Below, one piece after another: positions 5,484 through 58,083 of a DNA stretch of 64,000 nucleotides. The notes beneath the pieces are model-generated. The model was not told where the DNA came from. It did not search any database and saw only the letters and a list, made by a program, of their open reading frames with translations. This DNA is from Maritimibacter sp. (GTDB lineage Bacteria; Pseudomonadota; Alphaproteobacteria; Rhodobacterales; Rhodobacteraceae), in NCBI GenBank assembly GCA_017792445.1, contig CP051232.1:558001-622000 (forward strand), given 5' to 3'. Within the stretch, counting starts at the first letter, position 1. Each line of letters opens with the position of its first letter. The translations under genes were made by a program, and so were the position numbers.

Positions 5484-5518
5484 CCTCGTCCCTCCCGGTG
5501 CGGGACGATCAGGGAGTC

Positions 5519-5544: not shown

Positions 5545-5552
5545 TCCGAAGA

Positions 5553-5693: not shown

Positions 5694-5907
5694 CCTAGTC
5701 TCCTGTCGTAAAGATGGAGGCCGAACGCTGACTCTGCAGCGCGAGACCTCCCATTCAGGGTACAGGTCACTGTCCGGTAACCTCCCGTGACGATAGAACA
5801 TTCGTGACTAAAAGGAAATTCCACCCGAGCGAGGGAGTGGTTTTGTGGCACCGTTGCATCAAGTGCCCCCCGGCGACCGCCTAATGGCGCTAGATATTGT
5901 GTCCGCA

Positions 5908-20189: not shown

Positions 20190-21211
20190 GCGCCGTGATT
20201 TTCGACAACGTCTCGATCGTGTTCGGCGACAACCCGGCCGACGCCCTCCCCTTGATGGATCAGGGCCAGACCCGGCCCGAGATCCAGGACGCGACCGGGC
20301 AGGTTCTGGGCGTTCACGATTGCTCGCTTGAAGTGGCCGAGGGCGAAATCCTTGTACTGATGGGGCTGTCCGGCTCTGGCAAGTCGACGCTTCTGCGCGC
20401 GGTGAACGGGCTGAACCCGGTGGCGCGGGGCGAAGTTCGTGTGACTTACGGCGACCGCGAGGTCAGCGTGACCCACGCCGGAGCCAAGCTGCTTCGCGAG
20501 CTGCGGCTGAAGCAGATCTCGATGGTGTTTCAGGCTTTCGGACTACTTCCATGGCGCACGGTTCGCGAGAACGTGGGTCTTGGGCTGGAACTGGGCGGCA
20601 TGTCCCGCGCCGAACGCGAGGGGCAGGTCGAGCGCCAGCTGGAACTGGTCGGCCTGTCCGACTGGGCCGACCGCAAGGTCGGAGAGCTTTCGGGCGGCAT
20701 GCAACAGCGCGTGGGCCTTGCCCGCGCCTTTGCGACCGAGGCGCCCGTGCTGCTGATGGACGAGCCGTTCTCGGCACTCGATCCGCTGATCCGCACGCGG
20801 TTGCAGGACGAGTTGCTGGAACTTCAGGCGCGGCTGAAGCGCACGATCATCTTCGTGAGCCACGATCTTGACGAGGCGTTCAAGATCGGCAACCGGATCG
20901 CGATCATGGAAGGCGGGCGGATCGTCCAGTGCGGCACCCCGCAAGAGATCTTCACCAGCCCGGCGAATGACTATGTCGCCGACTTCGTCGCCCACATGAA
21001 CCCGCTGGGTGTGCTGTGCGCCCGCGATGTGATGGTGCCGGCGCGCGAGGAACTGGAGGATCGCGTTCCGCCCGACACCGACATCCGCGAGGTCATGGCC
21101 CGCGTCGCGGCCAGCGGGCATCCCGTTGGCGTGACAGACCTGGACGGGCAGATCATCGGCCAGATCACCAGAGACTCGGTATTGTCAAAGCTTCTCGACC
21201 CGCGCGGCTAA
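20186..21211 (+). CDS. choV: Choline ABC transporter, ATP-binding protein
   Basis: 341 residues. Walker A GLSGSGKST (about residue 60), signature LSGGMQQRVGLARA and Walker B VLLMDEPFSALDP are intact, followed by the H-loop SHDLDEAF. The C-terminal 60 residues form a CBS-like extension (TDIREVMARVAASGHPVGVTDLDG), as in glycine betaine ATPases. It overlaps choW by four bases and is followed by a strong bidirectional terminator. Confidence 0.94.
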   Translation: MSAVIFDNVSIVFGDNPADALPLMDQGQTRPEIQDATGQVLGVHDCSLEVAEGEILVLMGLSGSGKSTLLRAVNGLNPVARGEVRVTYGDREVSVTHAGAKLLRELRLKQISMVFQAFGLLPWRTVRENVGLGLELGGMSRAEREGQVERQLELVGLSDWADRKVGELSGGMQQRVGLARAFATEAPVLLMDEPFSALDPLIRTRLQDELLELQARLKRTIIFVSHDLDEAFKIGNRIAIMEGGRIVQCGTPQEIFTSPANDYVADFVAHMNPLGVLCARDVMVPAREELEDRVPPDTDIREVMARVAASGHPVGVTDLDGQIIGQITRDSVLSKLLDPRG

Positions 21212-21237
21212 GACACGCCGCACGGGCCCGAAAAAGG

Positions 21238-21273
21238 AAAACCGCCCTGCCGAGGTCTCGGCAGGGCGGTTTT
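21238..21273. terminator. Bidirectional intrinsic terminator
   Basis: AAAA, a 13-base stem CCGCCCTGCCGAG / CTCGGCAGGGCGG, then TTTT. It ends choV on the plus strand and the first Hint-domain gene on the minus strand. Confidence 0.92.
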
Positions 21274-21295
21274 CTTTGCTTGTCGTTCGCTTGGA

Positions 21296-22321
21296 TCAGG
21301 CGGCGGTGGCAGCCAGAAGGCGGCGCGAGGTAATCCGCGGCAGGTCCATCTCCGGCACGATGCGCGACATGCGGGTGTCCGCGTTGTCGAAAGCCATTTC
21401 CTGCGACTGTTCCAGATAGGTCTCGGCCGGCACGCCCTCTGCCAGGATCAGCTCATGGGCTTCGGTCTCGACGTGGAAGTAGGTGAAGGGTTCCGACTGT
21501 TTGACCTGACGGATGGTGGTGCCGTTCACCAGGGCCGCCGCATCGACCAGTGCGCCGTCGACCGCAATGCCGTGCTTCGGGCTGACCAGCAGGTCGCGTT
21601 CCGGCAGGCCGTTGCCAAGCGCGCCGGCCGCGATGCGGACCGGGCTGACGTCAAGCGGCGCGTGCATCGCCGGATCAACAGTGCGCTGGCCGACCCAGCG
21701 CACGCGGGTCTCGCCGCCATCGGCGCGGCGCAGCGTGTCACCCGGCTTCAGGTCTTCGACGCTGGTGAAACCGTCGACCGTCGCGATGCGCGTGCCTTCA
21801 AGGTAGCAGACCATCGCGTTGACCGACATCTGCGTGAATGTCTGCGAGGTATCTGTACCCGTGGCGGACAAGGTGAAGACGATGCCGGTGAATTCTCCGA
21901 CCGCCGTCAGCGTCGCCGTGCTGTTAGTGACCGTGCGGACGACAGTTCCGATCCCGTCGCGGCTGTCCGTGAAAGACACGCGAACCATGCCAGCTGCGGC
22001 ATAGTCGAGCGCTCGGAGGGTGACGGGGTTCAAAGCCGTGCCCGACATGACGTTGTTCGCCGGGTTCGCCGTGCTTTCCAGGGTCAGGCGAACGACATCT
22101 GGGAACACGGTGTTGGTGGAGTCCGCAAAGAACAGCGCCGGCGGACCGAAACCGGTTTCGTCCTGGCCGAGCGTGAAGAAGAGGTTCCCCTCGCCGGATT
22201 CGAAGGTCAGGGTAAATTTGATACCATCCGCGATGTGTTCAGCCGGAGCATCGCCGGTCGTAAAGACCGTCGAATAACCTGGCTGCGTGGGATTGGTCGT
22301 TCGAAAATCGAAAACCGGCAA
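21296..22321 (-). CDS. Hint-domain protein, paralogue 1
   Basis: 341 residues from a TTG start at 22321. The start is chosen because a perfect AGGAGG lies seven bases upstream, and because the two neighbouring paralogues begin the same way at LP-x-FDF. An upstream GTG at 22348 has no such site. The N-terminal 170 residues are a beta-rich domain. The Hint module begins at CYLEGTRIATVDGFTSVEDL, with the nucleophile-position Cys, a VSPKHGIAVDG block carrying the conserved His, and VETEAHELILAEGVPAETYL near the end. The C-terminal tail MSRIVPEMDLPRITSRRLL is shared by all three paralogues. No N-terminal signal peptide; if exported, a type I route is likely. Function unknown. Confidence 0.85.
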   Translation of the reverse strand: MPVFDFRTTNPTQPGYSTVFTTGDAPAEHIADGIKFTLTFESGEGNLFFTLGQDETGFGPPALFFADSTNTVFPDVVRLTLESTANPANNVMSGTALNPVTLRALDYAAAGMVRVSFTDSRDGIGTVVRTVTNSTATLTAVGEFTGIVFTLSATGTDTSQTFTQMSVNAMVCYLEGTRIATVDGFTSVEDLKPGDTLRRADGGETRVRWVGQRTVDPAMHAPLDVSPVRIAAGALGNGLPERDLLVSPKHGIAVDGALVDAAALVNGTTIRQVKQSEPFTYFHVETEAHELILAEGVPAETYLEQSQEMAFDNADTRMSRIVPEMDLPRITSRRLLAATAA

Positions 22322-22482
22322 TGCGTATCCTCCTGAGGTCTGATGCACTCATGTGGTGGTTGTCGAAAACTGAGCCACCAAATGCAGATACGTATGACTT
22401 AACGTTAGGCAGTTAACCGGTTCAATTAAAAATTGATGCCGAAATGGAAATAATTGCCTTCGTAACGACCTGCTCCATTAGA

Positions 22483-22515
22483 AAAGGCCCGCTGCAGTCC
22501 GTGCAGCGGGCCTTT
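22483..22515 (-). terminator. Intrinsic terminator of Hint paralogue 2
   Basis: AAAGGCCCGCTGCA / TGCAGCGGGCCTTT, a perfect 14-base stem with a five-base loop, lies 27 bases beyond the stop at 22543. Read on the minus strand it is followed by TTTTCTAA. Confidence 0.88.
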
Positions 22516-22542
22516 AAGATTTGGTCGACGCGCCCTTTAGTG

Positions 22543-23580
22543 TCAGGCGGCGGTCGCCTCTGCAAGGCGGCGCGAGGTCACGCGCGGCAGGTCCATCTCC
22601 GGCACGATGCGCGACATCCGCGAGTCGGCGTTGTCGAAGGCAACATCCGAGCGTTGCTCGAGATAGGTCTCGGCGGCAACGCCTTCGGCCACGATCAGTT
22701 CGTGCGCGTCGGTTTCCACGTGGTAGTAGGCAAACGGCTCGGTGCGCTTTTCGCGGCGGACGGTCGTGCCGTTCAGCAGCGCGCCCGCGTTGACCAGTTT
22801 GCCGTCCAGCGCGATGGCGTGCTCTGCCGAGACCAGCAGGTCGCGTTCCGGCAGCCCCTGCCCCAGCGCACCTTTCGAGATGCGGACGGGCGAGACGCGG
22901 GCCGGATCGGAAACCGACGGATCGACCATGGTCTGACCCAGCCAGCGGATCGCGACAGTGCGGCCGTCGGCGGTCAGGACCTCGTCGCCTTCGGCCAAAT
23001 CCTCGACAGCGCGCTGGCCGGTCGGGGTCGCAATACGGGTTCCCTCGCAGAAACACTCGAGGCTGTTGACGAACAGCGAGTTCATCATCTGCGAGTTGTC
23101 GCTGCCGGATGTCAGGCTGGAGGTGAAGGTAATGCCGGTAAAGGTGCCCACCGCAGTCAGAAGCTGGTTGCCGGTATAGGTCGTGTAAGAGACGGTGCCG
23201 GTGCCGTTGATCGAGTCCGTAAACGCGATATCGAAAGAGCCGTTCTTGTAGTTGGATGTCATCTGAAGCGCGACAGGGTTCAGCGCAGTCCCGGTGAAGG
23301 TCTTGTTGGCCGGGTTCGCCGTGCTTTCCAGGGTCAGACGAATGACGTCCGGAATGGTGTCCGGTGCGCTATCAAAGCCGACGGAGTCGGCGATATAGAA
23401 GGGGCCGGGGCCACCGAAGACGGGACCGCCCATATCAACGAAGATCTCACCCTGGTTGGCGGCGTTCGTGAACGACACGGTGAATTTCACGCCATCAGCG
23501 GTGTAGGTGAAATTGGATCCCGACGTGAATGCGGTGGAAAACGTCGGGGTCGCCGTCGTCTGGAAATCAAAAAGCGGCAA
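22543..23580 (-). CDS. Hint-domain protein, paralogue 2
   Basis: 345 residues, TTG start at 23580 after AGGAG, N-terminus LPLFDFQTTATPTF. The Hint module starts CFCEGTRIATPTGQRAVEDL and continues GDEVLTADGRTVAIRWLGQ, VSAEHAIALDG and VETDAHELIVAEGVAAETYL. The C-terminal half is nearly the same as paralogue 3, while the N-terminal beta domains differ strongly, keeping only short matches such as DGVKFTVSF and LTLESTANPANKTFTGTALN. It has its own terminator, so it is transcribed singly. Function unknown. Confidence 0.85.
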   Translation of the reverse strand: MPLFDFQTTATPTFSTAFTSGSNFTYTADGVKFTVSFTNAANQGEIFVDMGGPVFGGPGPFYIADSVGFDSAPDTIPDVIRLTLESTANPANKTFTGTALNPVALQMTSNYKNGSFDIAFTDSINGTGTVSYTTYTGNQLLTAVGTFTGITFTSSLTSGSDNSQMMNSLFVNSLECFCEGTRIATPTGQRAVEDLAEGDEVLTADGRTVAIRWLGQTMVDPSVSDPARVSPVRISKGALGQGLPERDLLVSAEHAIALDGKLVNAGALLNGTTVRREKRTEPFAYYHVETDAHELIVAEGVAAETYLEQRSDVAFDNADSRMSRIVPEMDLPRVTSRRLAEATAA

Positions 23581-28105: not shown

Positions 28106-28300
28106 ATGAAACTGATCAACCTGATCAACCGCTTCCGCGCCGACGAAGACGGCGCCGTGACCGTCGACTGGGTCGTGCTGACCGCTGCCATCGTCGGCCT
28201 CGGCATTGCCGTTCTGACCACCGTTGGTGGCGCCACCGACGACTACGGCCAGACCATCGGCTCGCACCTGTCGTCGCAGGGCATCAAGACCACCTACTGA
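28106..28300 (+). CDS. Flp-like (type IVb) pilin-like protein, copy 1
   Basis: 64 residues. A short basic N-terminus (MKLINLINRFRADEDG) is followed by a hydrophobic helix AVTVDWVVLTAAIVGLGIAV. Cleavage after Gly16 would give a mature chain starting AVTVDW, aligned with the G/ATAIEY start of Flp pilins, but with Asp and Trp where Flp pilins have Glu5 and Tyr6. The rest is a short polar tail. The ATG at 28106 has GAGAGA upstream. It is almost identical to the gene at 28575. A prepilin peptidase gene lies 8 kb away. Confidence 0.72.
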   Translation: MKLINLINRFRADEDGAVTVDWVVLTAAIVGLGIAVLTTVGGATDDYGQTIGSHLSSQGIKTTY

Positions 28301-28319
28301 TCGGCGGTCTTCACCTACG

Positions 28320-28351
28320 AAAGGGCCGTGTCCTCTGGGCGCGGCCTTTTT
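28320..28351 (+). terminator. Intrinsic terminator of pilin-like copy 1
   Basis: AAAGGGCCG and CGGCC-TTTTT form an imperfect stem 20 bases after the stop, ending in five Ts. Confidence 0.8.
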
Positions 28352-28574
28352 GCTTGCTTGACGTATGGGCAATCCACCCCTGCAAGGGTGGATCAGCCAG
28401 AGGCCGGAAACAGAACGGCGAATTGCTATGAATTCGTACCGCTCTGAACCAATTCCTGCCCGATTCCGGCGTCAAAACCATCCTCAGTGAGCGGGAAGAA
28501 AGTCCCGCGAGCAAAAGGGCAATACAAACACCTGCTGCTGCTGCTTGCGGGCAGGATTGATGGAGAGAGAGACC

Positions 28575-28769
28575 ATGAAACTGTTCAACCTGATCAACCG
28601 CTTCCGTGCTGACGAAGATGGCGCCGTGACCGTCGACTGGGTCGTGCTGACCGCTGCCATCGTTGGCCTCGGCATCGCCGTTCTGACCACCGTTGGTGGC
28701 GCCACCGACGACTACGGCCAGACCATCGGCTCGCACCTGTCGTCGCAGGGCATCAAGACCACCTACTAA
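28575..28769 (+). CDS. Flp-like (type IVb) pilin-like protein, copy 2
   Basis: 64 residues, identical to copy 1 except for Phe in place of Ile at residue 4. At DNA level only seven of 195 positions differ, five of them silent, plus the stop codon (TAA instead of TGA). The sequence between the copies is unrelated, so a duplication with later homogenisation of the coding part is likely. The start at 28575 has GGAGAGAGA upstream; the ATG at 28560 would be an odd addition to a pilin leader. Expected to be exported and processed like copy 1. Confidence 0.72.
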   Translation: MKLFNLINRFRADEDGAVTVDWVVLTAAIVGLGIAVLTTVGGATDDYGQTIGSHLSSQGIKTTY

Positions 28770-28819
28770 GGTCTTGCACCGCGCAGGCGGCGCTTGCGCC
28801 GCACACGCGTGAAGAAATC

Positions 28820-28849
28820 AGCCCCGGGCCTCTGGCGCCGGGGCTTTTT
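28820..28849 (+). terminator. Intrinsic terminator of pilin-like copy 2
   Basis: AGCCCCGG / CCGGGGCT with a ten-base loop followed by TTTT, 50 bases after the stop. Confidence 0.9.
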
Positions 28850-28911
28850 CGTGCCTGACGTTCCCGCCTGCCCGATTGCACGGCCCCGCGCGGCGCGCTA
28901 AGCGGACGGCC

Positions 28912-29673
28912 ATGCCCCGTTTCGCGCTGAAGATCGAGTATCACGGCGGCGCTTTTTCCGGCTGGCAGCGGCAGAAGGAGCATCCTTCCGTCCAGCAGGC
29001 CGTCGAAGAGGCGATCCGCCGTCTGGAACCGGACGCTCCCGGCATCGGCGCCGCGGGGCGGACCGATACCGGCGTACATGCGACGGGACAGGTGGCGCAC
29101 TGCGATATGGCCCGCGACTGGGACCCGTTCCGTCTGTCCGAGGCGATCAACTATCACCTGAAGCCCGCGCTTGTCGCCGTGGTGGCGGCGGCGCGGGTGT
29201 CCGACGACTGGCACGCGCGGTTCTCGGCTGTCGAACGGCGGTACCTCTACCGCATGATTTGCCGCCGCGCGCCGCTGACCCATGACCGCGGACTGGCGTG
29301 GAAAGTGCCGAACGCGATGGACATCGACGCGATGCAGGCCGGGGCGGACCACCTGATTGGTCTGCATGACTTCACCACCTTCCGCGCGGCGGAATGTCAG
29401 GCCAAAAGCCCGGTCAAGACCGTGGACGAGCTGACCGTGACCGCCGAGGGCGACGAGGTGCAAATCCGCGTCCGCGCCCGATCCTTCCTGCACAACCAGG
29501 TGCGCAGCTTCGTCGGCACGCTGGAACGCGTCGGCGCCGGGTCCTGGGCGCCGGAGGACGTGAAAGCGGCGCTGGAGGCGAAGAACCGCGCCGCATGCGG
29601 CCCCGTCGCGCCGCCGGACGGGCTGTACCTGACCGGTGTCGGCTATCCCGAGGATCCGTTCGCAGACGCGTGA
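28912..29673 (+). CDS. truA: tRNA pseudouridine(38-40) synthase
   Basis: 253 residues; isomerises uridines 38-40 in the tRNA anticodon stem. The N-terminal [15 protein letters not shown], the catalytic Asp in [17 protein letters not shown] (about residue 55), and the C-terminal [21 protein letters not shown] block are family signatures. The ATG at 28912 ([10 protein letters not shown]) is chosen over 28876 because the family begins there. Convergent with the next gene. Confidence 0.96.
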
Positions 29674-47686: not shown

Positions 47687-47815
47687 AAGCGAGGGGCCAG
47701 CCCCTCGCGCTCCCCGAGGTATTTGGAAAGAGAAGAAGCCAGACCCGTCCCGATCTTCTTCTCTTCAAAAATACCTCGGAGGGGGGTCCGGGGGGGGACG
47801 GCGTCCCCCCCGGCT
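47687..47815. repeat. Modular palindromic repeat, copy 1
   Basis: Lies in the 324-base gap between the TRAP large permease stop and the UxaA gene; nothing else was seen in this gap. Module A: GCGAGGGGC-CA-GCCCCTCGC (47689-47708). Module B: arms 47711-47738 and 47755-47784, an almost perfect long inverted repeat containing GAGGTATTT and AGAGAAGAAG. Module C: CCGGGGGGGGAC / GTCCCCCCCGG (47788-47813). Two further copies are at 52266 and 57952, in the same orientation. Confidence 0.85.
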
Positions 47816-47825
47816 TCGCATTGGC

Positions 47826-49424
47826 TCAGTCCAGCAGGACCTCGACGATGGGCGGCCAGATCAGAAGCACCGACAGCGCCAGCAGCTGGATCGCGATGAA
47901 CGGCAGGAAGCCCTTGAAGATATCCGTCAGCGAGATGTGCGGCGGCGCGACGGACTTCAGGTAAAAGGCCGCTGGCCCGAATGGTGGTGACAGGAAACTG
48001 ACCTGCATGTTCATACAGAACACCACCCCGAACCAGATGCCCACGTTCTTCGGCTCCAGCGTGCCCAGCCAGCCCAGTTCCTCGACCGGAAGGCGCAGGA
48101 CAATGGGCAGGAACACCGGCATCACCAGCAGCACGATGCCGACCCAGTCCATGAACATGCCCATGATCAGGAAGATCAGCATCATCACCAGGATGATGGT
48201 CATCGTCGGCATGTCGGCGCCCACGATCAGGTTCGCCACATACCGGGGCCCCCCCGCCAGAGTGTAGGCGGCGGCAAGCGAGGCTGCGCCGATGGTCACC
48301 CAGATGATCGTGCCGGTCGACTTCAGCGTCCGCATCACCGAATCCCACACGATATCGAAGGTCATCTCGCGCCGGATCAGGCCGATCACGAAGACGGCGA
48401 TCACGCCCATGCCCGCGGCTTCCGTGATCCCGGTGATGCCACCGTAGATCGAGCCCAGGACCACCCCGATCACCACGATCGGCGCGACAAGGCCCTTGCC
48501 CATCTGCCAGCCTTCCTTCGTGCGCTCGACCCCGAACACCACGAAGATCAGCGCCAGCCCCAGCACGCCCGCGCCGATCAGCCACGGCAGGTCGGACGGC
48601 ATGCCCAGCGGGATCGGGTCCTCGCCCTCGACCAGCACGGTGGCGCCGGTCAGCAGGAAGAACAGCGCCCGAAGCGTCAGCACCGCGCTTGCCATCACGA
48701 CAAGGCAGGACAGGAAGCCCAGGAACATCTGGAACTTCTGGCCACCTGCCGGCTCGCCTTCCTTCGGCTCTGGCAGCGGCGCCTGCTCGGGATGCATCTG
48801 GGTGCGGATGATGATGTAGACGATATAGAAGGACGCCAGCATGAAGCCCGGCAGGAAGGACGCGGTGAACAGCGCCTTGATCGAGGTTTCGGTGACCAGC
48901 CCGTAGAAGATCAGCACGATCGACGGCGGGATCATCGTGCCGAGCGATCCGCTGGCGCAGATCGTGCCGATGGCGAGGTTCTGGTTGTAGCCCAGCCGCA
49001 GCATCTGCGGCAGCGCGATCAGGCCCAGCAGCACGACCTCGCCGCCGATGATCCCGGACATCGCCGCCATGATCACCGCCATGATCGAGGTCACGATGGC
49101 AATGCCGCCCCGCGCCCGGCTGAGCCAGACGTTCAGCGACGAGTACATGTCCCGCGCGATGCCCGAGCGTTCCAGCAATGACGCCATGAATATGAACAGC
49201 GGTACCGAGATCAGCGAGTAGTTCGTCATCTGCCGGTAGACCGACTGCGACAGCACCGCGAGCGGGCCGCGCCCGAAATCTCCGAACAGCAGGTCGGGCC
49301 CGAACTTCAGGACCAGCGTCACCACCGCCAGGAAGGCCGAGGCAAAGCCAAGCGGCATCCCGATCGCCAGCAATGCGAACATCGCCAGCAGCAGGATCAG
49401 GGAAAGGGTGCCGATATCAACCAT
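47826..49424 (-). CDS. TRAP transporter, large permease (DctM type)
   Basis: 532 residues with about thirteen membrane segments, longer than usual because of an inserted central region with EPKEGEPAGGQKF. Family blocks: GMPLGFASAFLAVVT, SGIIGGEVVLLGLIALPQ, ASGSLGTMIPPSIVLIFYGL and the C-terminal FLSPPFGPAAFYLKSV. It forms the sodium-driven membrane part with the small permease, whose gene overlaps it by eight bases. Imports an organic or sugar acid. Confidence 0.93.
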   Translation of the reverse strand: MVDIGTLSLILLLAMFALLAIGMPLGFASAFLAVVTLVLKFGPDLLFGDFGRGPLAVLSQSVYRQMTNYSLISVPLFIFMASLLERSGIARDMYSSLNVWLSRARGGIAIVTSIMAVIMAAMSGIIGGEVVLLGLIALPQMLRLGYNQNLAIGTICASGSLGTMIPPSIVLIFYGLVTETSIKALFTASFLPGFMLASFYIVYIIIRTQMHPEQAPLPEPKEGEPAGGQKFQMFLGFLSCLVVMASAVLTLRALFFLLTGATVLVEGEDPIPLGMPSDLPWLIGAGVLGLALIFVVFGVERTKEGWQMGKGLVAPIVVIGVVLGSIYGGITGITEAAGMGVIAVFVIGLIRREMTFDIVWDSVMRTLKSTGTIIWVTIGAASLAAAYTLAGGPRYVANLIVGADMPTMTIILVMMLIFLIMGMFMDWVGIVLLVMPVFLPIVLRLPVEELGWLGTLEPKNVGIWFGVVFCMNMQVSFLSPPFGPAAFYLKSVAPPHISLTDIFKGFLPFIAIQLLALSVLLIWPPIVEVLLD

Positions 49425-50238
49425 TCTTGCCGTCCTCTTTCAGGGTGGCCTTGATGTTCTCGATCTCGATCTCGTCGATCTCGTCGGCGGGCGAGTGATG
49501 CTCGGGCGCCTTGTTCCAGTCGGCGATCAGGTTCGACAGCGCCTGGATCGCCACCAGAGAGATGATGATCAGGATGCCGGCCTTGATGGTGGCCGGAATG
49601 GGCGGATCCCATGCTGTGCCGAAGGCTTCCATCCGCAGGATCTTGTCGCGCGCCTCGTTGTAGCCGCCCCAGACAAGGCAGAAGGCAAAGATCCAGATCA
49701 GCAGGACCGAGATGCAGTCCGCCGTCTTCTGCGCCCAGCGGGGCATGATGTCGTAGATGATATAGATGCGGATGTGGCTGCGCTGCTGCATGGCGTACAG
49801 GCCGGCCAGCAGGAACAGGAAACCGGCGATCCACAGCGACAGTTCGTTGGCCCACAGGGTGGGCTTCTCGAACAGGTAGCGGGCGCAGACCTCGTAGAAC
49901 ATAACCAGCACGATGAACACGATGGACAGCATCGCCAGCCGGCCGCAGATCAGCGAAATGATGTCGAAGAAGCCGGACGGCTCGCCTTCGATCGAGCCGC
50001 GGGTGTCGCTGAGGTAGATCGACGCCAGCAACAGCGAAAGCGACAGCGTGATCAGCATCGCCGCAACGACCGGCCGTCCTGCCGGGCGCAGCATCTCGTA
50101 CATGCCGACATCGCTGTAGCCGAAGATCTGCCCGAGGATCAGGTAGGCCGCGATCAGACAGGCCAGCGCCGTCATCCCGATTGCCGCCATCCTGACCGGC
50201 GCGCGCAGCGAACCGAGCCAGACGCTCTGTTGTTCCAT
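49417..50238 (-). CDS. TRAP transporter, small permease (DctQ type)
   Basis: 273 residues, start at 50238 after GGAGGCTTTC. Larger than typical DctQ (about 170-200): two extra membrane segments precede the four-helix DctQ core (VLVMFYEVCARYLFEKPTLWANELSLW, the family block, followed by QQRSHIRI). Such long DctQ proteins occur with long DctM partners, as here. The C-terminal 45 residues are acidic and cytosolic. Confidence 0.9.
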   Translation of the reverse strand: MEQQSVWLGSLRAPVRMAAIGMTALACLIAAYLILGQIFGYSDVGMYEMLRPAGRPVVAAMLITLSLSLLLASIYLSDTRGSIEGEPSGFFDIISLICGRLAMLSIVFIVLVMFYEVCARYLFEKPTLWANELSLWIAGFLFLLAGLYAMQQRSHIRIYIIYDIMPRWAQKTADCISVLLIWIFAFCLVWGGYNEARDKILRMEAFGTAWDPPIPATIKAGILIIISLVAIQALSNLIADWNKAPEHHSPADEIDEIEIENIKATLKEDGKNG

Positions 50239-50368
50239 GAAAGCCTCCACAGCGGCGCGTCCCCGCGCCTTCCCGTTCAACGGGCGCTGTCGCCGCGCCC
50301 TGTCGAAAACGGCGAGCCCTTGTACAGGGCTCGCCGAAATGTCGTGGTCAGTCGCGACGCATCGCGGC

Positions 50369-51388
50369 TCAGTTCATCTCGGAGACGAGACCCAGCTGAC
50401 GCAGGTACTCCATGTGGCTCTCGACCAGCGCCTCGGCTTCCGGCGAGGTCGCGAACTCGGGCCATGTGGCCTGGGCCGCGTCACGGAAGGCCTGCAGGTC
50501 TTCATCCGCCCAAGTGTGGATCGTCACGCCCTGCTCTTTCAGCTGGGCCACGGCCTCGGCGTTCGCCTTCTCGAAGGTCAGCGCGGTGCGCAGCGCCAGC
50601 GATTCCATGGCGACCGACATAATGCGGCGGTGGCTTTCGGGCATGCCATCCCACACCGCCTTGTTGCAGGTCAGGTGGTCGGACGGCATCGAGTGGAAGC
50701 CCGGGAAGTTCGCGTGCTTCACGATGTCGTACAGGCCCATGCCCATGTTGTTGGCGATGCCCGACGCGTCGGCGCCGTCGATGATGCCGGTTTCAAGCGC
50801 GGTGAAGATCTCGGTGAAGTCCATCACGATGGGCGAGGCGCCCAGCTTTTCGAAGATCTTGGTTTCCATGCCCGGAGGCGAACGGAATTTCCAATCCTTG
50901 AAGTCTTCCGCGTTGCGGATCGGCTTGGACGAGGCCAGCGATTCCTGGCCATAGACCCACCAGCCCACAAGCTGCATGCCGTACTGGTTGTACAGCTCCT
51001 GCGCCGCGTCCAGACCGCCACCGTAATACAGCCAGCTCAGCTGCTGGTACGGGGTGGAATAGCCGCCCATGATGTCGCCGACGAACTGGAAGGCCGGGTT
51101 CTTGCCGGTCTGGTAGCCGCCGCCGGTCATGTCACAGTCGATGATGCCGTTGGACGCGGCGTCGAAAGTCTCGACGGTAGCCACGACCGAGGACGAGTAG
51201 AACATCTCGATCTCGATCTCGCCGTTCGACATGGTCTGGACGTTGTCGACGTATTCCGCCGCCAGCTTGCCCGACACGGTCTCGGGGGCATAGTGCGTCT
51301 GGATGCGAAGGGTGGTCTGCGCCATGGCGGTCGTACCGGCAAGCGCAAGGGTACCGGCGGCAAGCGCCGCCTTGCAGAACGTATTCAT
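50369..51388 (-). CDS. TRAP transporter, solute-binding protein (DctP type)
   Basis: 339 residues, ATG at 51388 with GGAGGAG upstream. Signal peptide MNTFCKAALAAGTLALAGTT, cleavage near AMAQ. The binding fold includes LRIQTHYAPETVSGKLAAEY, and DWKFRSPPGMETKIFEKLGA, where the conserved Arg would bind the ligand's carboxylate. Periplasmic. The pattern resembles the mannitol/sugar-acid and C4-acid DctP groups; given the genes around it, an aldonate or uronate is likely. It is divergent from the GntR gene, sharing a control region. Confidence 0.92.
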   Translation of the reverse strand: MNTFCKAALAAGTLALAGTTAMAQTTLRIQTHYAPETVSGKLAAEYVDNVQTMSNGEIEIEMFYSSSVVATVETFDAASNGIIDCDMTGGGYQTGKNPAFQFVGDIMGGYSTPYQQLSWLYYGGGLDAAQELYNQYGMQLVGWWVYGQESLASSKPIRNAEDFKDWKFRSPPGMETKIFEKLGASPIVMDFTEIFTALETGIIDGADASGIANNMGMGLYDIVKHANFPGFHSMPSDHLTCNKAVWDGMPESHRRIMSVAMESLALRTALTFEKANAEAVAQLKEQGVTIHTWADEDLQAFRDAAQATWPEFATSPEAEALVESHMEYLRQLGLVSEMN

Positions 51389-51495
51389 AGGTCTCCTCCC
51401 AGTTTGCGGCGCGCTCCGGGCTCCCTCCCGCTGACGCCAACACCGGAGTTGTAACAAGCCCCGCGCCTCACGCAAACAAAAAATCTGCAATCCCC

Positions 51496-51525
51496 GAAAT
51501 TTTGAAATTTCATTGCAATGGCAAT
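51496..51525. promoter_or_regulatory. Candidate GntR operator between dctP-type and gntR-type genes
   Basis: Three overlapping inverted repeats in an AT-rich patch: GAAATTT-TG-AAATTTC (51496-51511), CATTGCAATG (51511-51520) and ATTGC-N4-GCAAT (51512-51525). They are 108-137 bases before the TRAP binding-protein start and 55-84 before the TTG of the regulator. Confidence 0.55.
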
Positions 51526-51579
51526 TTTTCTGTTTCAATCTCGCCAAGGAATTGTGCAACCGCCCGTGAAGGCTGCCCC

Positions 51580-52254
51580 TTGAAGCAACAGACCCCGGAT
51601 ATCCTGCAGCAGATGCGCGACCGGCTGATCATGGCGCACTATCGCCTCGGCCAGAAACTGCGCCCGTCCGAGGTCGCGGCAGAGTTCGAGGTCTCGGCCA
51701 ACACGATCCGCGAAATCATGCTGCGCCTCTCTGCCGAAGGGCTGCTGGACTACGAGGATCAGCGCGGCTTCCGGGTCGTGGGCGCCTCGGACCGGCTGCT
51801 GCACGAGATCACCGAATTCCGGATCGTACTGGAACAGTGCGGAGTGGAGAGGTCGATCGCCCGGGGCGGCATCGAATGGGAGGCACAGATGGCCGCGGCG
51901 CACCACAAGCTGTCGCATATCGAGGCCCGCATCCGCCGCACCGGCGACGTGGTCGGTGTGCTGAAACACTGGAACGACGCGGAACTGGATTTTCACCTGT
52001 CGCTGATGGGCGCCGCGGACCTGCCGATCCTGCAACAGAGCTTCCGCACCGTCTACGCCCGCTTCCGCCAGCAGATCGTCTCGCCCGAGCGCAGCTACGC
52101 CCACCGCGAGGGCAACATCATCGAGCACCAGCGCATTCTCGAAGCCGCGCTGGACCGCGACGTGGCCGCAAGCCACGATGCGATCTACCGCCACCTGCGG
52201 CGCAACCTGATGCCCGAGCCCGACGCCCGGTCCGAAGACACGATGACGGCCTGA
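51580..52254 (+). CDS. GntR-family regulator (FCD subfamily)
   Basis: 224 residues from a TTG at 51580 with GAAGG upstream; a TTG at 51502 is also in frame but lies in the operator-like patch and has no ribosome site. The winged helix is at about residues 15-60 (LGQKLRPSEVAAEFEVSANT, then LRLSAEGLLDYEDQRGFRVV). The C-terminal FCD domain has ITEFRIVLEQCGVERSIARG, and metal/ligand residues in DAELDFHLSLMGA and HQRILEAALDRD. Likely controls the divergent TRAP operon in response to a sugar acid. Confidence 0.88.
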   Translation: MKQQTPDILQQMRDRLIMAHYRLGQKLRPSEVAAEFEVSANTIREIMLRLSAEGLLDYEDQRGFRVVGASDRLLHEITEFRIVLEQCGVERSIARGGIEWEAQMAAAHHKLSHIEARIRRTGDVVGVLKHWNDAELDFHLSLMGAADLPILQQSFRTVYARFRQQIVSPERSYAHREGNIIEHQRILEAALDRDVAASHDAIYRHLRRNLMPEPDARSEDTMTA

Positions 52255-52265
52255 CAGGCGACGCG

Positions 52266-52432
52266 AAGCGAGGGGCCAGCCCCTCGCGCTCCCCGGGATA
52301 TTTCCAGACCAAAGAAGACGCGGCTTCTTCTCTTCCAAAATACCTCGGGGGAGTCGCGAAGCGACGGGGGCAGCGCCCCCACGCCCGATGTCAGTGCGCA
52401 CCTCCGGTGCGACGGGAGCAGCGCCCCCGTGC
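52266..52432. repeat. Modular palindromic repeat, copy 2
   Basis: Between two convergent genes. Module A: GCGAGGGGC-CA-GCCCCTCGC (52268-52287). Module B: left arm CCCCGGGATATTT, right arm with CTTCTTCTCTTCC and AAATACCTCGGGG. Module C: GTCGC-GAA-GCGAC (52353-52365). Module D: GGGGGC-AGC-GCCCCC (52366-52380). A second, weaker C-D pair follows: GCAC-CTCCG-GTGC and GAGCAGCGCCCCC, to about 52428. Confidence 0.85.
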
Positions 52433-52436
52433 CCGG

Positions 52437-53411
52437 TCAGTCCGACAGATCGTCCTCGATGTAGGCCCGCACGATGGCGTCGAAATTCGAGTCCGCGACA
52501 AAGCCCAGCGCCAGTGCGCGCTGCGGGTCGAAGTCGCGCGCCCAGCCGCCGACGATCCGCTGGATCGTCTCGTTCGGCTCGCGCCGGATCAGGGCCACCG
52601 CCTTGTCGCCCGCCGCCGAGCGCAGTGATTCGATCTGCTCGGCCACCGTGCAGCTGACACCCGGCATCGACAGCGCGCGGTTGTCGCCCAGCAGCGCGGT
52701 ATCCAGCCCGGCCGCGTGGATCAGGAAACCCACCGCCGTCCGGGGCGAGGCGTGCCAGTGCCGCACCGTATCGTCCACCGGCAGGATCGCCTCCTGCCCG
52801 TTCAGCGGCTCGCGGATGATGCCCGAGAAGAAAGACGACGCCGCGAGGTTCGCCTTGCCCGGCCGCACCACGATGGTCGGCAGGCGGATCGAGATCGCCT
52901 CGACGATGCCCCGGCGCCCGAGGTCGTTCATCATCAATTCGGCGCAGGCCTTCTGCGCGCCATAGGACGTCTGCGGCGTCAGCGGCTGGTTGTCGGGAAT
53001 CCGGTCGGGGAACGGAGGGCCGAACACCGCGATGGACGAGGTGAACACCACCCGCGGCACATAGGCGCCGCCCGAGACGCGATGCTCTTCCTCCAGCTTC
53101 ATCCCGAAGTGCAGGAACGCCGCGCCGTTGATCAGCCAGCCCTTCTGGAAGTCCGATTCCGACTCGCCCGACACAATGGCCGCAAGGTGGAAGATCACGT
53201 CGAACCGGGCCGCGACAAGCGCGTCGATGTCGTCGAAATTGCCCAGCTGGCCGACGATCCGTTCCGCGGCCGGAGCCCCCGCTTCGGGATAGGCCATGTC
53301 GAACAGCGTCACCTCGATGTCGGTGTCGCCGTCCAGCCCTTCGGCGCTTAGCCGATGGGCCAGCTTCTGGCCGACCATGCCTCCGCCACCGATGATCAGA
53401 ACCCTGCGCAT
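52437..53411 (-). CDS. denD: DenD-like sugar-acid dehydrogenase (NAD-dependent epimerase/dehydratase family)
   Basis: 324 residues, start at 53411 after GGAGGAG. Extended-SDR fold with NAD motif RVLIIGGGGMVGQKLAH, FHLAAIVSGESE, and active site VVFTSSIAVFGPP with YGAQKACAEL (Tyr and Lys). The pattern agrees with D-erythronate dehydrogenase, which oxidises the C2 hydroxyl of a C4 sugar acid. Its usual partners DenO/OtnK-type kinases are not next to it, so the substrate may differ. Divergent from the SDR gene. Confidence 0.75.
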   Translation of the reverse strand: MRRVLIIGGGGMVGQKLAHRLSAEGLDGDTDIEVTLFDMAYPEAGAPAAERIVGQLGNFDDIDALVAARFDVIFHLAAIVSGESESDFQKGWLINGAAFLHFGMKLEEEHRVSGGAYVPRVVFTSSIAVFGPPFPDRIPDNQPLTPQTSYGAQKACAELMMNDLGRRGIVEAISIRLPTIVVRPGKANLAASSFFSGIIREPLNGQEAILPVDDTVRHWHASPRTAVGFLIHAAGLDTALLGDNRALSMPGVSCTVAEQIESLRSAAGDKAVALIRREPNETIQRIVGGWARDFDPQRALALGFVADSNFDAIVRAYIEDDLSD

Positions 53412-53454
53412 GGCCACTCTCCTCCTCGTGCCGTGTCAATCGCCGGCGACCCTA

Positions 53455-53470
53455 GCTTTTTGCAAAGCTT
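53455..53470. promoter_or_regulatory. Inverted repeat in the denD/SDR divergent region
   Basis: AGCTTT-TTGC-AAAGCT is a perfect inverted repeat, with TTTGCAAA inside (53460-53467). It is 44 bases from the denD-type start and 80 from the SDR start. Its TTGCAA core recalls the site at 51511-51520, so the same GntR protein may bind both. Confidence 0.45.
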
Positions 53471-53549
53471 TGGAATAGGCCTGATGTGCGCTAACGGAAA
53501 CCGGACCGGATGCGCCCGTTCCGACTAGCGTTCCATTGGGAGGAAATGC

Positions 53550-54287
53550 ATGACGAAACAACGCCTTGAGGGCAAGCGCGCGCTCGTGACCGCGGCAGGC
53601 CAGGGGATTGGGCTTGCCTCGGTTCTGGCGATGGCCGACGAGGGCGCGACCGTCTTCGCGACCGACGTGAACGAGGCCGCGCTGGCCGAAATCGACCACC
53701 CGAACATCGAGACCTTCGTGCTGAACGTGCTCGACGACGCAAGCGTTAAGGCGGGGATCGAAAGGGCGCAGCCGGACGTGCTGTTCAACTGCGCGGGCTT
53801 CGTCCACAACGGTACGATTCTCGAGGCGACCGATGACGAATGGGACTTTGCCTTCGACCTGAACGCCAAGGCGCAGTTCCACACCATCCGCGCGGCGCTG
53901 CCCGGCATGCTGGAGCGCGGCGGCGGCTCGATCATCAACATGTCCTCTGTCGCTTCCTCGGTGACCGCACCGCCGAACCGGTTCATCTACACCGCGTCCA
54001 AGGCCGCGGTCGTCGGCATCACCAAGTCGGTCGCGATGGACTATGTGACCAAGGGCATCCGCTGCAACTGCATCTGCCCCGGCACCGTCGACAGCCCCTC
54101 GCTGCACGAACGCCTGCAGGCCACCGGCGATTACGAGGCCGCGCTTGCCGCCTTCAACGCGCGCCAGCCGATGGGCCGCATCGCCCGCGCCGAGGAGATC
54201 GCCGCACTGGTGGTCTACCTCGCCTCCGACGACTCCAGCTACACCACAGGCCAGGCGCACGTCATCGACGGCGGCTGGTCGATCTGA
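53550..54287 (+). CDS. SDR dehydrogenase, probably 2-keto-3-deoxyaldonate 4-dehydrogenase
   Basis: 245 residues, ATG after GGGAGGAAA. Classical SDR: cofactor loop VTAAGQGIGLASV, NCAGFVHNG, catalytic Ser in NMSSVAS, and YTASKAAVVG with Tyr and Lys. The C-terminus GQAHVIDGGWSI is typical. Members near this pattern act as 2-keto-3-deoxy-L-fuconate dehydrogenases, oxidising C4 to a 2,4-diketo acid. The dehydratase and FAH hydrolase next to it support that role. NAD is favoured by the Asp at the end of the second strand (ATDVNEA). Confidence 0.85.
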   Translation: MTKQRLEGKRALVTAAGQGIGLASVLAMADEGATVFATDVNEAALAEIDHPNIETFVLNVLDDASVKAGIERAQPDVLFNCAGFVHNGTILEATDDEWDFAFDLNAKAQFHTIRAALPGMLERGGGSIINMSSVASSVTAPPNRFIYTASKAAVVGITKSVAMDYVTKGIRCNCICPGTVDSPSLHERLQATGDYEAALAAFNARQPMGRIARAEEIAALVVYLASDDSSYTTGQAHVIDGGWSI

Positions 54288-54302
54288 CGGGGACACAGCC
54301 AG

Positions 54303-56087
54303 ATGACCGACAAACCGAAACTCCGTTCTCGCCAGTGGTTCAACAACCCTGACGACCGCGAGATGACCGCGCTGTATCTCGAGCGCTACCTGAACTACGG
54401 CCTGACCCGCGAAGAGCTGCAGTCCGACAAGCCGATCATCGGCATCGCCCAGACCGGCAGCGACCTGTCGCCCTGCAACCGGCACCATATCGAACTGTCC
54501 AAGCGCGTGCGTGACGGCATCGCCGCCGCCGGCGGCACCACGATGGAGATCCCGGTTCATCCGATCCAGGAGACCGGCAAGCGGCCCACCGCGTCGCTCG
54601 ACCGCAACCTTGCCTACCTGAGCCTCGTCGAGTCGCTGTTCGGCTACCCGATCGACGGCGTTGTCCTGAACATCGGCTGCGACAAGACCACGCCCGCCCT
54701 TCTGATGGCCTGCGCCACCGTGGGCATCCCGGCGATCGCGCTGTCGGTCGGCCCGATGCTGAACGGCTGGTTCCGCGGCGAGCGCACCGGGTCGGGCACC
54801 ATCGTCTGGAAAGCGCGCGAATTGCACGCCGCGGGCGAGATCGACGACGACCAGTTCATGGAACTGGTGGCCTCGTCCGCGCCTTCGACCGGCTACTGCA
54901 ACACGATGGGCACCGCGACCACGATGAACTCGCTGGCCGAGGCGCTGGGGATGCAGCTGCCCGGCTCAGCCGCCATCCCGGCGCCGTATCGAGAGCGCGG
55001 GCAGATCGCCTATCAGACCGGCAAGCGCATCGTCGAGATGGTCGAAGAGGACCTGACACCGAAAAAGATCATGACCCGCGAGGCTTTCGAGAACGCCATC
55101 GTGGTGAACTCGGCCATCGGCGGCTCGACCAACGCGCCGATCCACCTGAACGGCGTCGCCCGCCACCTGGGTGTCGAACTGGACAACGACGACTGGCAAC
55201 GGCTGGGCTACAAGGTCCCGCTGCTGGTGAACCTGCAGCCCGCGGGCGAATACCTTGGCGAAGACTATCACCGCGCGGGCGGCGTGCCCGCCGTGATCGC
55301 GGAACTGCTGGAAGCCGGGCTGCTGCCGCACCCGGACGCGCTGACCGCGAACGGCAAGACGATGGGCGAGAACTGCGAGGGCAAACGCTCGATCAACACC
55401 GACGTCATCAAGACCGTCGCCGCGCCGATGCTGAAGGACGCGGGCTTCCTGAACCTGAAGGGCAACCTGTTCGACAGCGCGATCATGAAGACCAGCGTGA
55501 TCTCGCAGGAGTTCCGTCAGCGTTATCTCGAGAACCTGGACGACCCGATGGCCTTCGAGGGCCGCGCGATCGTGTTCGACTCGATCGAGGACTATCACAA
55601 GCGGATCGACGACCCGGCGCTGGAAATCGACGAGCACTGCATCCTGATCATGCGCGGCGCCGGACCCATCGGCTATCCCGGCGGCGCCGAGGTGGTGAAC
55701 ATGCGCCCGCCCGCGTATCTGCTGAAGAAGGGCATCAAGGCGCTGCCCTGCGTCGGCGACGGGCGGCAGTCGGGCACCTCCGGTTCGCCCTCGATCCTGA
55801 ACGCCTCGCCCGAGGCGGCGGATGGCGGCGGGCTTGGCCTTGTGCAGACCGGCGACCGGGTGCGGATCGACCTGAACAAGTGCACCGCGGACATGGACGT
55901 GCCCGCGGACGAACTGGCGAAACGCGCAAGCGCGCTTGGCACCCATCCCTACGCACCCGAAAGCCAGTCGCCGTGGCAGGAGATCTTCCGCGAGAAGGTC
56001 GAGCCGTTCTCGAAGGGCATGACCCTGAAGGGCGCCGACGCCTACAAGGACATTGCGCGCAAGTACACGCCACGCGACAACCACTGA
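54303..56087 (+). CDS. Aldonate dehydratase, IlvD/EDD family
   Basis: 594 residues, the usual size of pentonate dehydratases. It dehydrates a sugar acid (arabinonate-, xylonate- or similar) to the 2-keto-3-deoxy acid using an iron-sulfur cluster and Mg. Cluster cysteines are Cys58 ([10 protein letters not shown]), Cys126 ([10 protein letters not shown]) and Cys199 ([16 protein letters not shown]), the spacing known for the [2Fe-2S] aldonate dehydratases. C-terminal [20 protein letters not shown] carries the catalytic Ser region. It is 15 bases after the SDR gene. The substrate's stereochemistry cannot be read. Confidence 0.9.
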
Positions 56088-56149
56088 ATCGATACCCCTG
56101 AATTTTAAGAAAGTTCGCCGCCAGACGGCGAAGAGAGAGGAGACTGACC

Positions 56150-56998
56150 ATGAAACTGTGCCGCTACGGAGCCCCGGGCGAAGAAAAGCCCGGCCTGATC
56201 GACGCCGACGGCAACCTGCGCGACCTGTCGCCCCACGTCCATGACATCGCGGGCGCCGCGTTGTCCGACGAAGGGCTGGCCCGCCTGCGCGGGATCGACG
56301 TGAACTCGCTGTCGATCGTCAAGACCACCCCCCGCTTCGGCCCCTGCGTCGGCGGCACCCGCAAGTTCATGTGCATCGGCCTGAACTATTCCGACCACGC
56401 CGCCGAAACCGGCGCGGACATTCCGGAAAACCCGATCCTGTTCATGAAGGCCATCTCGGCCATCGTCGGCCCGAACGACGACGTGGTGATGCCGCGCGGC
56501 TCGACCCATACCGATTGGGAAGTCGAACTGGGCGTCGTGATCGGCAAGAACTGCAAGTACGTCTCGGAGGAAGAGGCGCTGGACTACGTCGCCGGTTATT
56601 GCACCATCAACGACGTGTCCGAACGCCACTTCCAGGCGAAGATCTCGGGCCAGTGGACCAAGGGCAAGTCCTGCGACACCTTCGGCCCGACCGGCCCGTG
56701 GCTGGTGACCCGCGACGAGATCGAGGACGTGCAGAACCTCGATATGTGGCTCGACGTGAACGGCAAGCGGATGCAGACCGGGAACACCAACACGATGATC
56801 TTCACCGTGGCGCAGATCATCAGCCACCTCAGCCAGCTGTTCACGCTGGAACCGGGCGACGTGATCTCGACCGGTACGCCTCCGGGTGTCGGCATGGGCA
56901 TCAAGCCCGAGCCGGTCTACCTGAAGGAAGGTGACGTGATGGAGCTTGAGATCGCCGGCCTCGGCAAGCAGCGCCAGACCGTGAAGGCCGACGTATGA
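56150..56998 (+). CDS. Fumarylacetoacetate hydrolase-family enzyme (2,4-diketo-3-deoxyaldonate hydrolase)
   Basis: 282 residues. Metal site: THTDWEVELGVVIGKN with the E-x-E pair and a later Asp, and the family stretch FMCIGLNYSDHAAETGADIP. Also NDVSERHFQAKISGQWTKGKS and STGTPPGVGMG. These agree well with 2,4-diketo-3-deoxy-L-fuconate hydrolase, which cleaves the diketo acid to pyruvate and L-lactate; with a pentose acid the product would be pyruvate and glycolate. It follows the dehydratase and overlaps the next gene by four bases. Confidence 0.88.
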   Translation: MKLCRYGAPGEEKPGLIDADGNLRDLSPHVHDIAGAALSDEGLARLRGIDVNSLSIVKTTPRFGPCVGGTRKFMCIGLNYSDHAAETGADIPENPILFMKAISAIVGPNDDVVMPRGSTHTDWEVELGVVIGKNCKYVSEEEALDYVAGYCTINDVSERHFQAKISGQWTKGKSCDTFGPTGPWLVTRDEIEDVQNLDMWLDVNGKRMQTGNTNTMIFTVAQIISHLSQLFTLEPGDVISTGTPPGVGMGIKPEPVYLKEGDVMELEIAGLGKQRQTVKADV

Positions 56999-57942
56999 GC
57001 GGCAAGCCGGACGCCATCGTTCTGGGCACCGTGACCGAGCGGATGCGCGCCCGGCTCGACGAAAAGTTCACCGTCCACGCCCCCGGCGCGGGCGGTGTAC
57101 CGGAGGCGCTGCTGGGCGCCTCCTACATCTGCTGCGGACAGGGCGGTGCCTCCGTGCGCGCCGCGCAGATCGACGCGATGCCCGATCTCAAGATCATCTC
57201 GAACTTCGGGGTCGGCTACGACAACATCGACGCGGCCCACGCGGCCTCGAAGGGTGTGATCGTCTCGCATACGCCGGACGTGCTGAACGACGAGGTCACG
57301 AATACCGCGATCCTGCTGATGCTCGCCGCCGCGCGCAACTTCCGCCATGACGAGGACTGGGCCCGCTCCGGCACGTGGGAGAAACAGGGCGCCGCGCCGC
57401 TGTCCCGCTCGGTGAAGGGCGCGACGGTCGGCATTCTCGGACTGGGCCGCATCGGCGAGGCGCTGGCCGAAAAGCTGGGCGCGTTCGGGGTGAAGGTGGT
57501 CTATCACAACCGGTCCAGGAAGGACGTGCCCTACGCCTATTACGCCGACCTTGAAGAGATGGCCCGCGACGCGGATATCCTGATCTCGGTCGCGCCGGGC
57601 GGAGCCTCGACCCATCACATCGTCAACGCTCAGGTGATGGAAGCGCTGGGGCCCGATGGCCTGCTGATCAACGTCGGCCGCGGCAGCGTGGTCGACGAGA
57701 CCGCGCTGGTCGCCGCTCTCGAGTCGTGCAAACTCGGCGCCGCCGCGCTCGACGTGTTCGAGGAAGAGCCCAAGATCCCCGACGCGCTGAAGGCGATGGA
57801 CAACGTCGTGCTGCTGCCCCACGTCGGCAGCGCCACGGTCGAAACCCGCGCGGCGATGGGCGATCTCGTGGTCGACAACCTGATCGACATGCTCGAGACC
57901 GGCAAGGCGCGGACCCCCGTGCCGGAGTGCCGGGATCTCTGA
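56995..57942 (+). CDS. D-2-hydroxyacid dehydrogenase (glyoxylate/hydroxypyruvate reductase-like)
   Basis: 315 residues. NAD(P) motif VGILGLGRIGEALAEKLG, active-site Arg in SVAPGG-x-STHH region and INVGRGSVVDE, and catalytic His in LLPHVGSATVETR. Members interconvert glycolate/glyoxylate or lactate/pyruvate. In this operon it would process the short acid released by the hydrolase. Four-base ATGA overlap with the hydrolase gene. A palindromic repeat follows the stop. Confidence 0.87.
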   Translation: MSGKPDAIVLGTVTERMRARLDEKFTVHAPGAGGVPEALLGASYICCGQGGASVRAAQIDAMPDLKIISNFGVGYDNIDAAHAASKGVIVSHTPDVLNDEVTNTAILLMLAAARNFRHDEDWARSGTWEKQGAAPLSRSVKGATVGILGLGRIGEALAEKLGAFGVKVVYHNRSRKDVPYAYYADLEEMARDADILISVAPGGASTHHIVNAQVMEALGPDGLLINVGRGSVVDETALVAALESCKLGAAALDVFEEEPKIPDALKAMDNVVLLPHVGSATVETRAAMGDLVVDNLIDMLETGKARTPVPECRDL

Positions 57943-57951
57943 GAAAGAAGG

Positions 57952-58083
57952 AAGCGAGGGGCCAGCCCCTCGCGCTCCCCGGGATATTTCCGGACCAAAG
58001 AAGACCCGCCGACCGCGCCCTGCTTCTTCTCTTTGCAAATACCTCGGGGGAGTCCCGCACAGCGGGACGGGGGCAGCGCCCCC
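57952..58083. repeat. Modular palindromic repeat, copy 3
   Basis: Between two convergent genes. Module A: GCGAGGGGC-CA-GCCCCTCGC (57954-57973), identical to the other copies. Module B: left arm CCCCGGGATATTTCCGGACC, right arm GCTTCTTCTCTTTG then AAATACCTCGGGGG. Module C: GTCCCGC-ACA-GCGGGAC (58052-58068), different in sequence from copy 2 yet fully paired. Module D: GGGGGC-AGC-GCCCCC (58069-58083), as in copy 2. Confidence 0.87.

Follow-up and report, generated by a model that had tools for sequence, protein, structure and literature searches.

A candidate REP/BIME-like element at gene ends of Rhodobacteraceae, built of half-elements with lineage-specific tails

Three composite palindromic repeats lie close together in a 64,000-nt stretch (the window) of Maritimibacter sp. 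contig CP051232.1, from a genome of 4,675,334 bases, and each is not one mobile unit but two half-elements with facing tails. Read 5' to 3', a half comprises one or more GC hairpins and then a 27-nt motif, termed B, which consists of CCCCG(A/G)G(G/A)TATTT, three free bases (N3) and an 11-nt tail. Two kinds of hairpin part occur, A (GCGAGGGGCCAGCCCCTCGC) and D' (GGGGGC-NNN-GCCCCC), the latter as a rule followed by a variable hairpin C', so that A is an alternative to D'+C', and the composite order A-B-C-D is that of an A-type half meeting a D'-type half. Most halves stand at the 3' end of a gene, singly or in inverted pairs, and their tails occur in discrete lineage-specific versions. The element persists at orthologous junctions while hairpin C changes with its pairing kept, and N3 and the flanks drift. 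We tentatively explain these features by an element of Rhodobacteraceae (in the wide, GTDB sense) that resides in 3' untranslated regions, resembles the repetitive extragenic palindromes (REP) and bacterial interspersed mosaic elements (BIME), is under selection and has dialect-evolving tails, an explanation whose probability we put just short of even and for which we infer a mechanism acting at RNA ends.

Half-elements and their placement in the Maritimibacter genome

The half motif is present at 146 places in the 4.68-Mb genome (up to three mismatches), and the reversed control at none. We read 107 halves in 334 kb, comprising the window and the surroundings of the first 100 places in the list of 146; these are the best matches, mostly with no or one mismatch, so the conservation of the motif among them is partly due to this choice, and one half is counted twice (5819 = 4645879) in a contig with a suspected 35-kb terminal repeat. 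With an offset of 4,640,060, positions 4340-7340 and 4644400-4647400 of the contig (C1) agree in 3001 of 3001 bases, an indication that the contig was not circularised and carries a terminal repeat of about 35 kb. The 107 halves fall into two discrete subtypes, B1 (73 halves) and B2 (34). The B1 tail AAGAGAAGAAG is shared by 70 of the 73, and the B2 tails are GACCAAAGAAG in 23, GACAGAAGAAG in five and GACCGAAGAAG in four halves. The left B arm of copies 2 and 3, which a preliminary description of this DNA took to have diverged from the right arm, is not a decayed copy but belongs to the second subtype, CCCCGGGATATTT-N3-GACCAAAGAAG and close variants.

Thirteen inverted pairs with gaps of 6-19 bp are found among the 107 halves, leaving 81 unpaired, and the spacers of all 13 pairs differ. 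A-type halves favour pairs (11 of 16, against 15 of 91 others; Fisher p 5e-5). Hairpin A has 10 exact places in the genome and 15 with up to two mismatches, at 14 of which the B motif follows. D' (GGGGGCNNNGCCCCC) has 115 places (control 2); 56 of the 75 listed are within 90 bp of a listed half, and the remaining 19 may be independent or may adjoin unlisted halves.

Genes were called by a codon-usage gene finder trained on the genome's own sequence, with six window genes, GST and QueG checked against Pfam. In 98 of the 107 cases the half has the 3' end of a gene facing it at no more than 150 nt. Convergent genes flank 56 halves (including 22 pair members), tandem genes flank 31 that have the same sense as the upstream gene and 14 that have the opposite sense, and five halves are in divergent and one in an undefined context; a single half, counted under tandem sense, lies inside a long called gene. 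In 34 cases a lone half stands between convergent genes, with median distances of 51 nt past the stop codon of one gene and 13 nt to that of the other, and because of this closeness to both stop codons one half could serve both genes. The repeat family of the preliminary description, with gene-end and convergent placement, is supported. The halves are divided evenly between the strands (53 on +, 54 on -), with a maximum cumulative skew of 9 against a mean of 8.4 in shuffles, and in view of this lack of skew in the 107 halves we reject a strand-biased site like the FtsK-orienting polar sequences (KOPS). There is no association with tRNA genes in the window.

The compensating changes claimed for hairpin C are borne out, both by its pairing statistics and by comparison with a syntenic relative. 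Out of 106 distinct halves, 81 with the D'-C' order were used and 25 dropped; 468 of 500 stem positions are Watson-Crick paired, against a shuffled mean of 0.592 and maximum of 0.641 (200 plain letter shuffles, each also given its best register). These 81 halves contain 31 different C stems, the second pair alone being T-A in 33, C-G in 29, G-C in eight and mismatched in 10. Genus relatives have 349 of 358 positions paired in 58 halves, from 92 halves less 32 dropped and two with N. In the Maritimibacter halves the loops are mostly TGC or TTC, that is GCA or GAA on the opposite strand, which may resemble stable GNA minihairpin loops. The composites as a whole also fold stably: on the + strand none of 200 shuffles folds as well (z -3.9 to -5.9), and on the - strand 0, 1 and 3 of 200 are as good (z -5.4, -3.2 and -2.4).

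Conservation of sites and range across the family

The nearest relative compared (G248), an assembly flagged with 10% contamination, shares a 12.9-kb block with the window region at 88.5% identity, in which all three composites, found without pattern bias, are kept. At copy 1 A and both B1 arms are retained and the G/C hairpin is shorter but still paired; at copy 2 A, the B2/B1 hybrid and D are retained and the C hairpin is longer but paired; at copy 3 A and D are retained, the left arm is B1 in place of B2, and the C hairpin is wholly different yet fully paired. The subtype has switched as a block at copy 3 and likewise at 1314593. Of 51 pattern-found halves in this relative 34 have their upstream gene in the sampled 7% of the Maritimibacter genome, and for 32 of them a Maritimibacter half lies close by, an enrichment rather than a rate as the 7% was chosen for its halves. 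In the 32 orthologous halves the motif columns are 0.91-1.0 identical, except for two tail columns (0.75 and 0.78), an identity that is partly by construction as both sides were pattern-found; N3 is 0.50-0.62 identical and the 30 nt downstream 0.34-0.78. The tails shift jointly, from GACCAAAGAAG in Maritimibacter to GACAGAAGAAG in the relative at six of 10 orthologous B2 sites. The suggestion of a mobile element is not upheld by these data, since positions are kept by descent. With regard to miniature inverted-repeat transposable elements (MITEs), recent insertion is disfavoured by the different spacers of all 13 pairs and by the retention of sites from one species to another, though no search for target duplications was made.

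Half of the sampled family, 124 of 248 genomes (Maritimibacter included), matches the Maritimibacter motif at least once with up to two mismatches (control columns 0). Outside the family a single match, to a related pattern with one mismatch, occurs in one of 285 genomes of a class-wide sample, frequencies that are not strictly comparable given the different patterns and mismatch limits. Among the rows listed, tails are uniform within genomes (16 of 16 in each of G208, G128, G092 and G154, nine of 10 in G200) and differ between them. The junction between the GST and queG genes, both named by Pfam, allows this to be followed at one site: GST is found in 241 of 248 family genomes, and of 73 GST-queG junctions 30 have the element by the strict pattern (reversed-letters control 0 of 73), with about seven more by eye, bearing many different tails between genomes. 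Of the 73, 30 were taken as the best-scoring protein matches, independently of the pattern, and 13 of these have the element; a further 40 were hand-picked (15 with it), 14 of the first 20 because matches were already known there, and three came from pattern hits (two with it). The element is absent where GST and queG abut. Annotated plasmid records place it between convergent TetR and speB genes in Leisingera and 67 nt after pheT in Ruegeria TM1040 (L320; pheT ends at 1434, element at 1501). A plasmid of Rhodovastum atsumiense (L322, 1501-1536), a species of the Acetobacteraceae in another order, contains a 100% identical 36-nt A-B module in a gap of its gene table.

The three composites of the window

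All three copies (47687, 52266 and 57952) are found where the preliminary description placed them, with an identical 20-base hairpin A in each (47689, 52268 and 57954), and its B arms, C hairpins and 15-base D (52366 and 58069) are present as described. The order A-B-C-D is, however, that of two inverted halves, (A+B) and the reverse complement of (D'+C'+B), and not of a single unit.

In copy 1 hairpin A (GCGAGGGGC CA GCCCCTCGC; 47689-47708, + strand, by sequence and folding) forms the left half with a B1 half-motif (CCCCGAGGTATTT-N3-AAGAGAAGAAG; 47712-47738, +, by motif search). Across a 16-bp gap the right B1 half-motif (47755-47781, -, by motif reading) adjoins a G/C hairpin identified by folding (47788-47813, -), which as reported is G/C-rich but is one long hairpin where the other copies have D and C. 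This copy lies between two - strand genes, and the gene-end position asserted for all copies holds for its C/D side, after the end of a DctM (TRAP) gene (47826), but not for its A side, which faces the start of an altronate dehydratase gene (47501). Copy 2 begins with hairpin A (52268-52287, +) after a Pfam-checked GntR/FCD regulator gene ending at 52254, continues with a left half-motif of subtype B2 (CCCCGGGATATTT-N3-GACCAAAGAAG; 52291-52317, +, by motif search) and, after 6 bp, a right B1 half-motif (52324-52350, -, by motif reading), hairpin C (GTCGC/GCGAC; 52353-52365, -) and hairpin D (GGGGGCAGCGCCCCC; 52366-52380, -), which precedes the end of a Pfam-checked epimerase gene at 52437. Adjoining copy 2 the sequence has an extra hairpin (CGCACC-TCC-GGTGCG) and a D-like hairpin (GGGAGCAGCGCCCCC) at 52397-52428 (-); a stretch of this unit (CGCACC-TNC-GGTGCG and the D-like hairpin) has three matches about 49 bp apart at one place in the nearest relative (G248:C14:72184-72357). 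In copy 3 hairpin A (57954-57973, +) follows a Pfam-checked 2-hydroxyacid dehydrogenase gene ending at 57942, and the left half-motif (57977-58003, +, by motif reading and synteny) is the B2 that is B1 at the relative's orthologous site. A 19-bp gap separates it from the right B1 half-motif (58023-58049, -, by motif reading), hairpin C (GTCCCGC/GCGGGAC, with GTCGCACC/GGTGCGAC in the relative; 58052-58068, -, by pairing and synteny) and hairpin D (GGGGGCAGCGCCCCC; 58069-58083, -), before the end of a Pfam-checked acyltransferase gene at 58091. At other gene ends of the window there are canonical-looking terminators of hairpin and T tract (21211-21296, symmetrical; 22321-22543; 28300-28560; 28769-28912; 50190-50369).

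No Rfam family matches the window at gathering score, the best sub-threshold match in the copy 2 region having 18.8 bits against a required 38, and we therefore reject a known Rfam RNA family; this lack of matches is also the one result that bears on the small-RNA source suggested by the preliminary description. Copy 2 has no match in 50,697 phage records, and on this result we reject a phage origin. We found no description of the element in the literature, in a search covering subscription papers little.

Possible function and alternative explanations

In the explanation we favour, the transcribed hairpins would form a barrier against 3'-to-5' exonucleases, as do those of E. coli REP/BIME, and would also be a partial terminator for transcripts arriving from either side; two convergent genes could be served by an inverted pair or by a single half that is read in both directions. 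The tail would be recognised by a trans-acting factor, or be a preferred 3'-end, pause or processing site, and this role would keep it uniform within a genome while it shifts between lineages, possibly assisted by recombination between halves as seen where the subtype switched as a block. Such a REP/BIME-like role, in mRNA 3'-end protection and partial two-sided termination, is consistent with the location at gene ends, with the bias towards convergent genes, with the stability of the hairpins and with the retention of the element at junctions that look like those of operons, and conserved sequence flanking free bases, together with dialects that shift jointly at fixed sites, suggests recognition by a factor.

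Several observations weigh against this role. The hairpins are mostly without a following U tract; in the sense direction A, C' and D' lead into non-U sequence, C-rich or other (A of copy 3 and D at 2568573, which TTTCGTT follows, are exceptions on the opposite strand). In tandem contexts the preference for the sense orientation is mild (31 of 45, p 0.016), and the next start codon is less than 25 nt away in 10 of 31 tandem cases and very near at several GST-queG junctions, which is hard to reconcile with a strong terminator. In Ruegeria TM1040 a canonical-looking hairpin with TTTT stands between the pheT stop codon and the element, which may lie outside the pheT mRNA, and one weaker plasmid match overlaps the gene betC. 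Conservation of sites is also uneven: at the epimerase gene adjoining copy 2 an element can be recognised within 220 nt in three of 80 related loci, and among genus relatives it is present in G248, is a half with another tail in G152 and is missing in G249 and G250, both of which have another gene order; it is likewise missing at the GntR gene of G250. Of 11 GST-queG junctions that allow the comparison, five have the tail listed for their genome and six another one, in a listing biased to tails like those of Maritimibacter. Gene ends with and without the element have canonical U-tract terminators equally often (10 of 128 with it, one place being counted twice and four overlapping the element itself, against nine of 85 without; p 0.62; shuffled control 0 of 85). 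Finally, C-stem mismatches favour neither RNA strand (C/A 7, G/T 5, others 13), which leaves room for a role at the DNA level.

The main rival is such a DNA-level site, in which inverted halves would be bound as duplex DNA or cruciform, as in a gyrase-type BIME site or by another chromosome protein, where convergent transcription piles up supercoils, the hairpins acting as DNA and the tail as a protein site. It would account for the 56 convergent against five divergent contexts, the use of both orientations, the indifferent C-stem mismatches, the tails uniform within a genome (in the rows listed) and the pheT case beyond a canonical terminator, but against it stand retention at operon-like junctions such as GST-queG, the 81 of 107 unpaired halves, gaps that vary from 6 to 19 bp and the sense orientation favoured in tandem contexts, and we consider it unlikely. 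Ordinary terminators made alike by gene-conversion homogenisation, which we hold to be quite unlikely, would similarly explain GC hairpins after stop codons and the block switches at copy 3 and 1314593. Against this stand the general lack of a U tract, 23 different N3 among 73 B1 copies and the variety of C stems; conversion alone is disfavoured because it would also homogenise N3 and hairpin C between the conserved parts. Canonical terminators fail as the whole explanation, being neither enriched nor depleted at gene ends with the element. Canonical bidirectional intrinsic terminators also place a GC hairpin between convergent genes, but the present element is mostly without A/U tracts and has strong sequence conservation, and canonical terminators exist separately in the same genome.

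Rhodobacteraceae are known for gene transfer agents, which counts towards a DNA uptake or exchange signal like the Neisseria DNA uptake sequence (DUS), a short sequence with inverted pairs doubling as terminators and, as is known for DUS, dialects between lineages. Agreeing with this are the tails, uniform within and different between genomes, and the inverted pairs at gene ends, as described for the short and mostly intergenic DUS, whose pairs act as terminators (PMC2397512). The density of about one half per 32 kb does not agree with it, as about one per 1-2 kb would be expected of an uptake sequence and meningococci have one DUS per about 1.2-1.5 kb according to the same paper, giving the present element some 20-fold fewer copies per kb; its 27-nt gapped motif adjoins hairpins in a fixed order, with a mild orientation bias to genes, and we regard an uptake signal as very unlikely. 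REP/BIME proper, mobile palindromes that are non-autonomous and owe their spread to a REP-associated tyrosine transposase (RAYT), would explain the more than 100 extragenic palindromic copies (146 halves, with one of 107 inside a called gene), the gene-end placement, the inverted and two-subtype hybrid pairs, the complementary changes and the species-specific sequences, all among the features reported for the REPs of E. coli, Pseudomonas and Stenotrophomonas (PMC2817692), for which a role in transcription termination has also been proposed (PMC2817692). The transposase whose search the preliminary description recommended (Y1/RAYT, PF01797) has no match in the Maritimibacter genome or in 19 of 20 element-carrying relatives, whereas five of 14 control genomes, E. 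coli included, do match. In the remaining relative two adjacent Y1 (IS200/RAYT-type) transposase matches are located at G099:C24:426-1214. Mobile REPs spread by RAYT are largely refuted for these genomes, 20 of 21 being without RAYT and a GTAG/GTGG-type head, as in the REP list of PMC2817692, preceding the palindrome in only 10 of 88 D-type and none of 16 A-type halves. The sites are moreover kept by descent across species and genera with all spacers different, and a 27-nt non-palindromic motif with an N3 gap lies outside the hairpins, so that to REP/BIME proper we assign only a very slight probability. The Pseudomonas fluorescens repeats R0, R2 and IR1_g share the bias towards convergent gene tails, the stem-loops and a suspected terminator function (PMC2718517), but that paper considers R0 and R2 as possible MITEs linked to insertion sequence (IS) transposases, whereas the sites and architecture here point to descent.

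The REP/BIME-like gene-end element could be understood more specifically as a gene-end signal with evolving dialects, in which, across the family, a putative factor reads TATTT-N3 and the 11-nt tail beside variable hairpins and co-evolves with the element, such that more than 100 gene ends per genome shift dialect jointly at fixed junctions over genus-level time. We think this possible, if on the unlikely side; were it true, the signal would constitute a sequence-specific 3'-end system outside the known terminator classes. Of the 248 genomes sampled from this family, which is abundant in the sea and in soil, half carry at least one match, and they offer a natural evolutionary experiment: dozens of genera have the same junction with different tails and with hairpins that vary yet stay paired, and nearly all tested genomes have no REP transposase. 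The element has a bearing on how REP-like repeats can remain uniform when there is no transposition, and on 3'-end formation between convergent genes in these high-GC bacteria.

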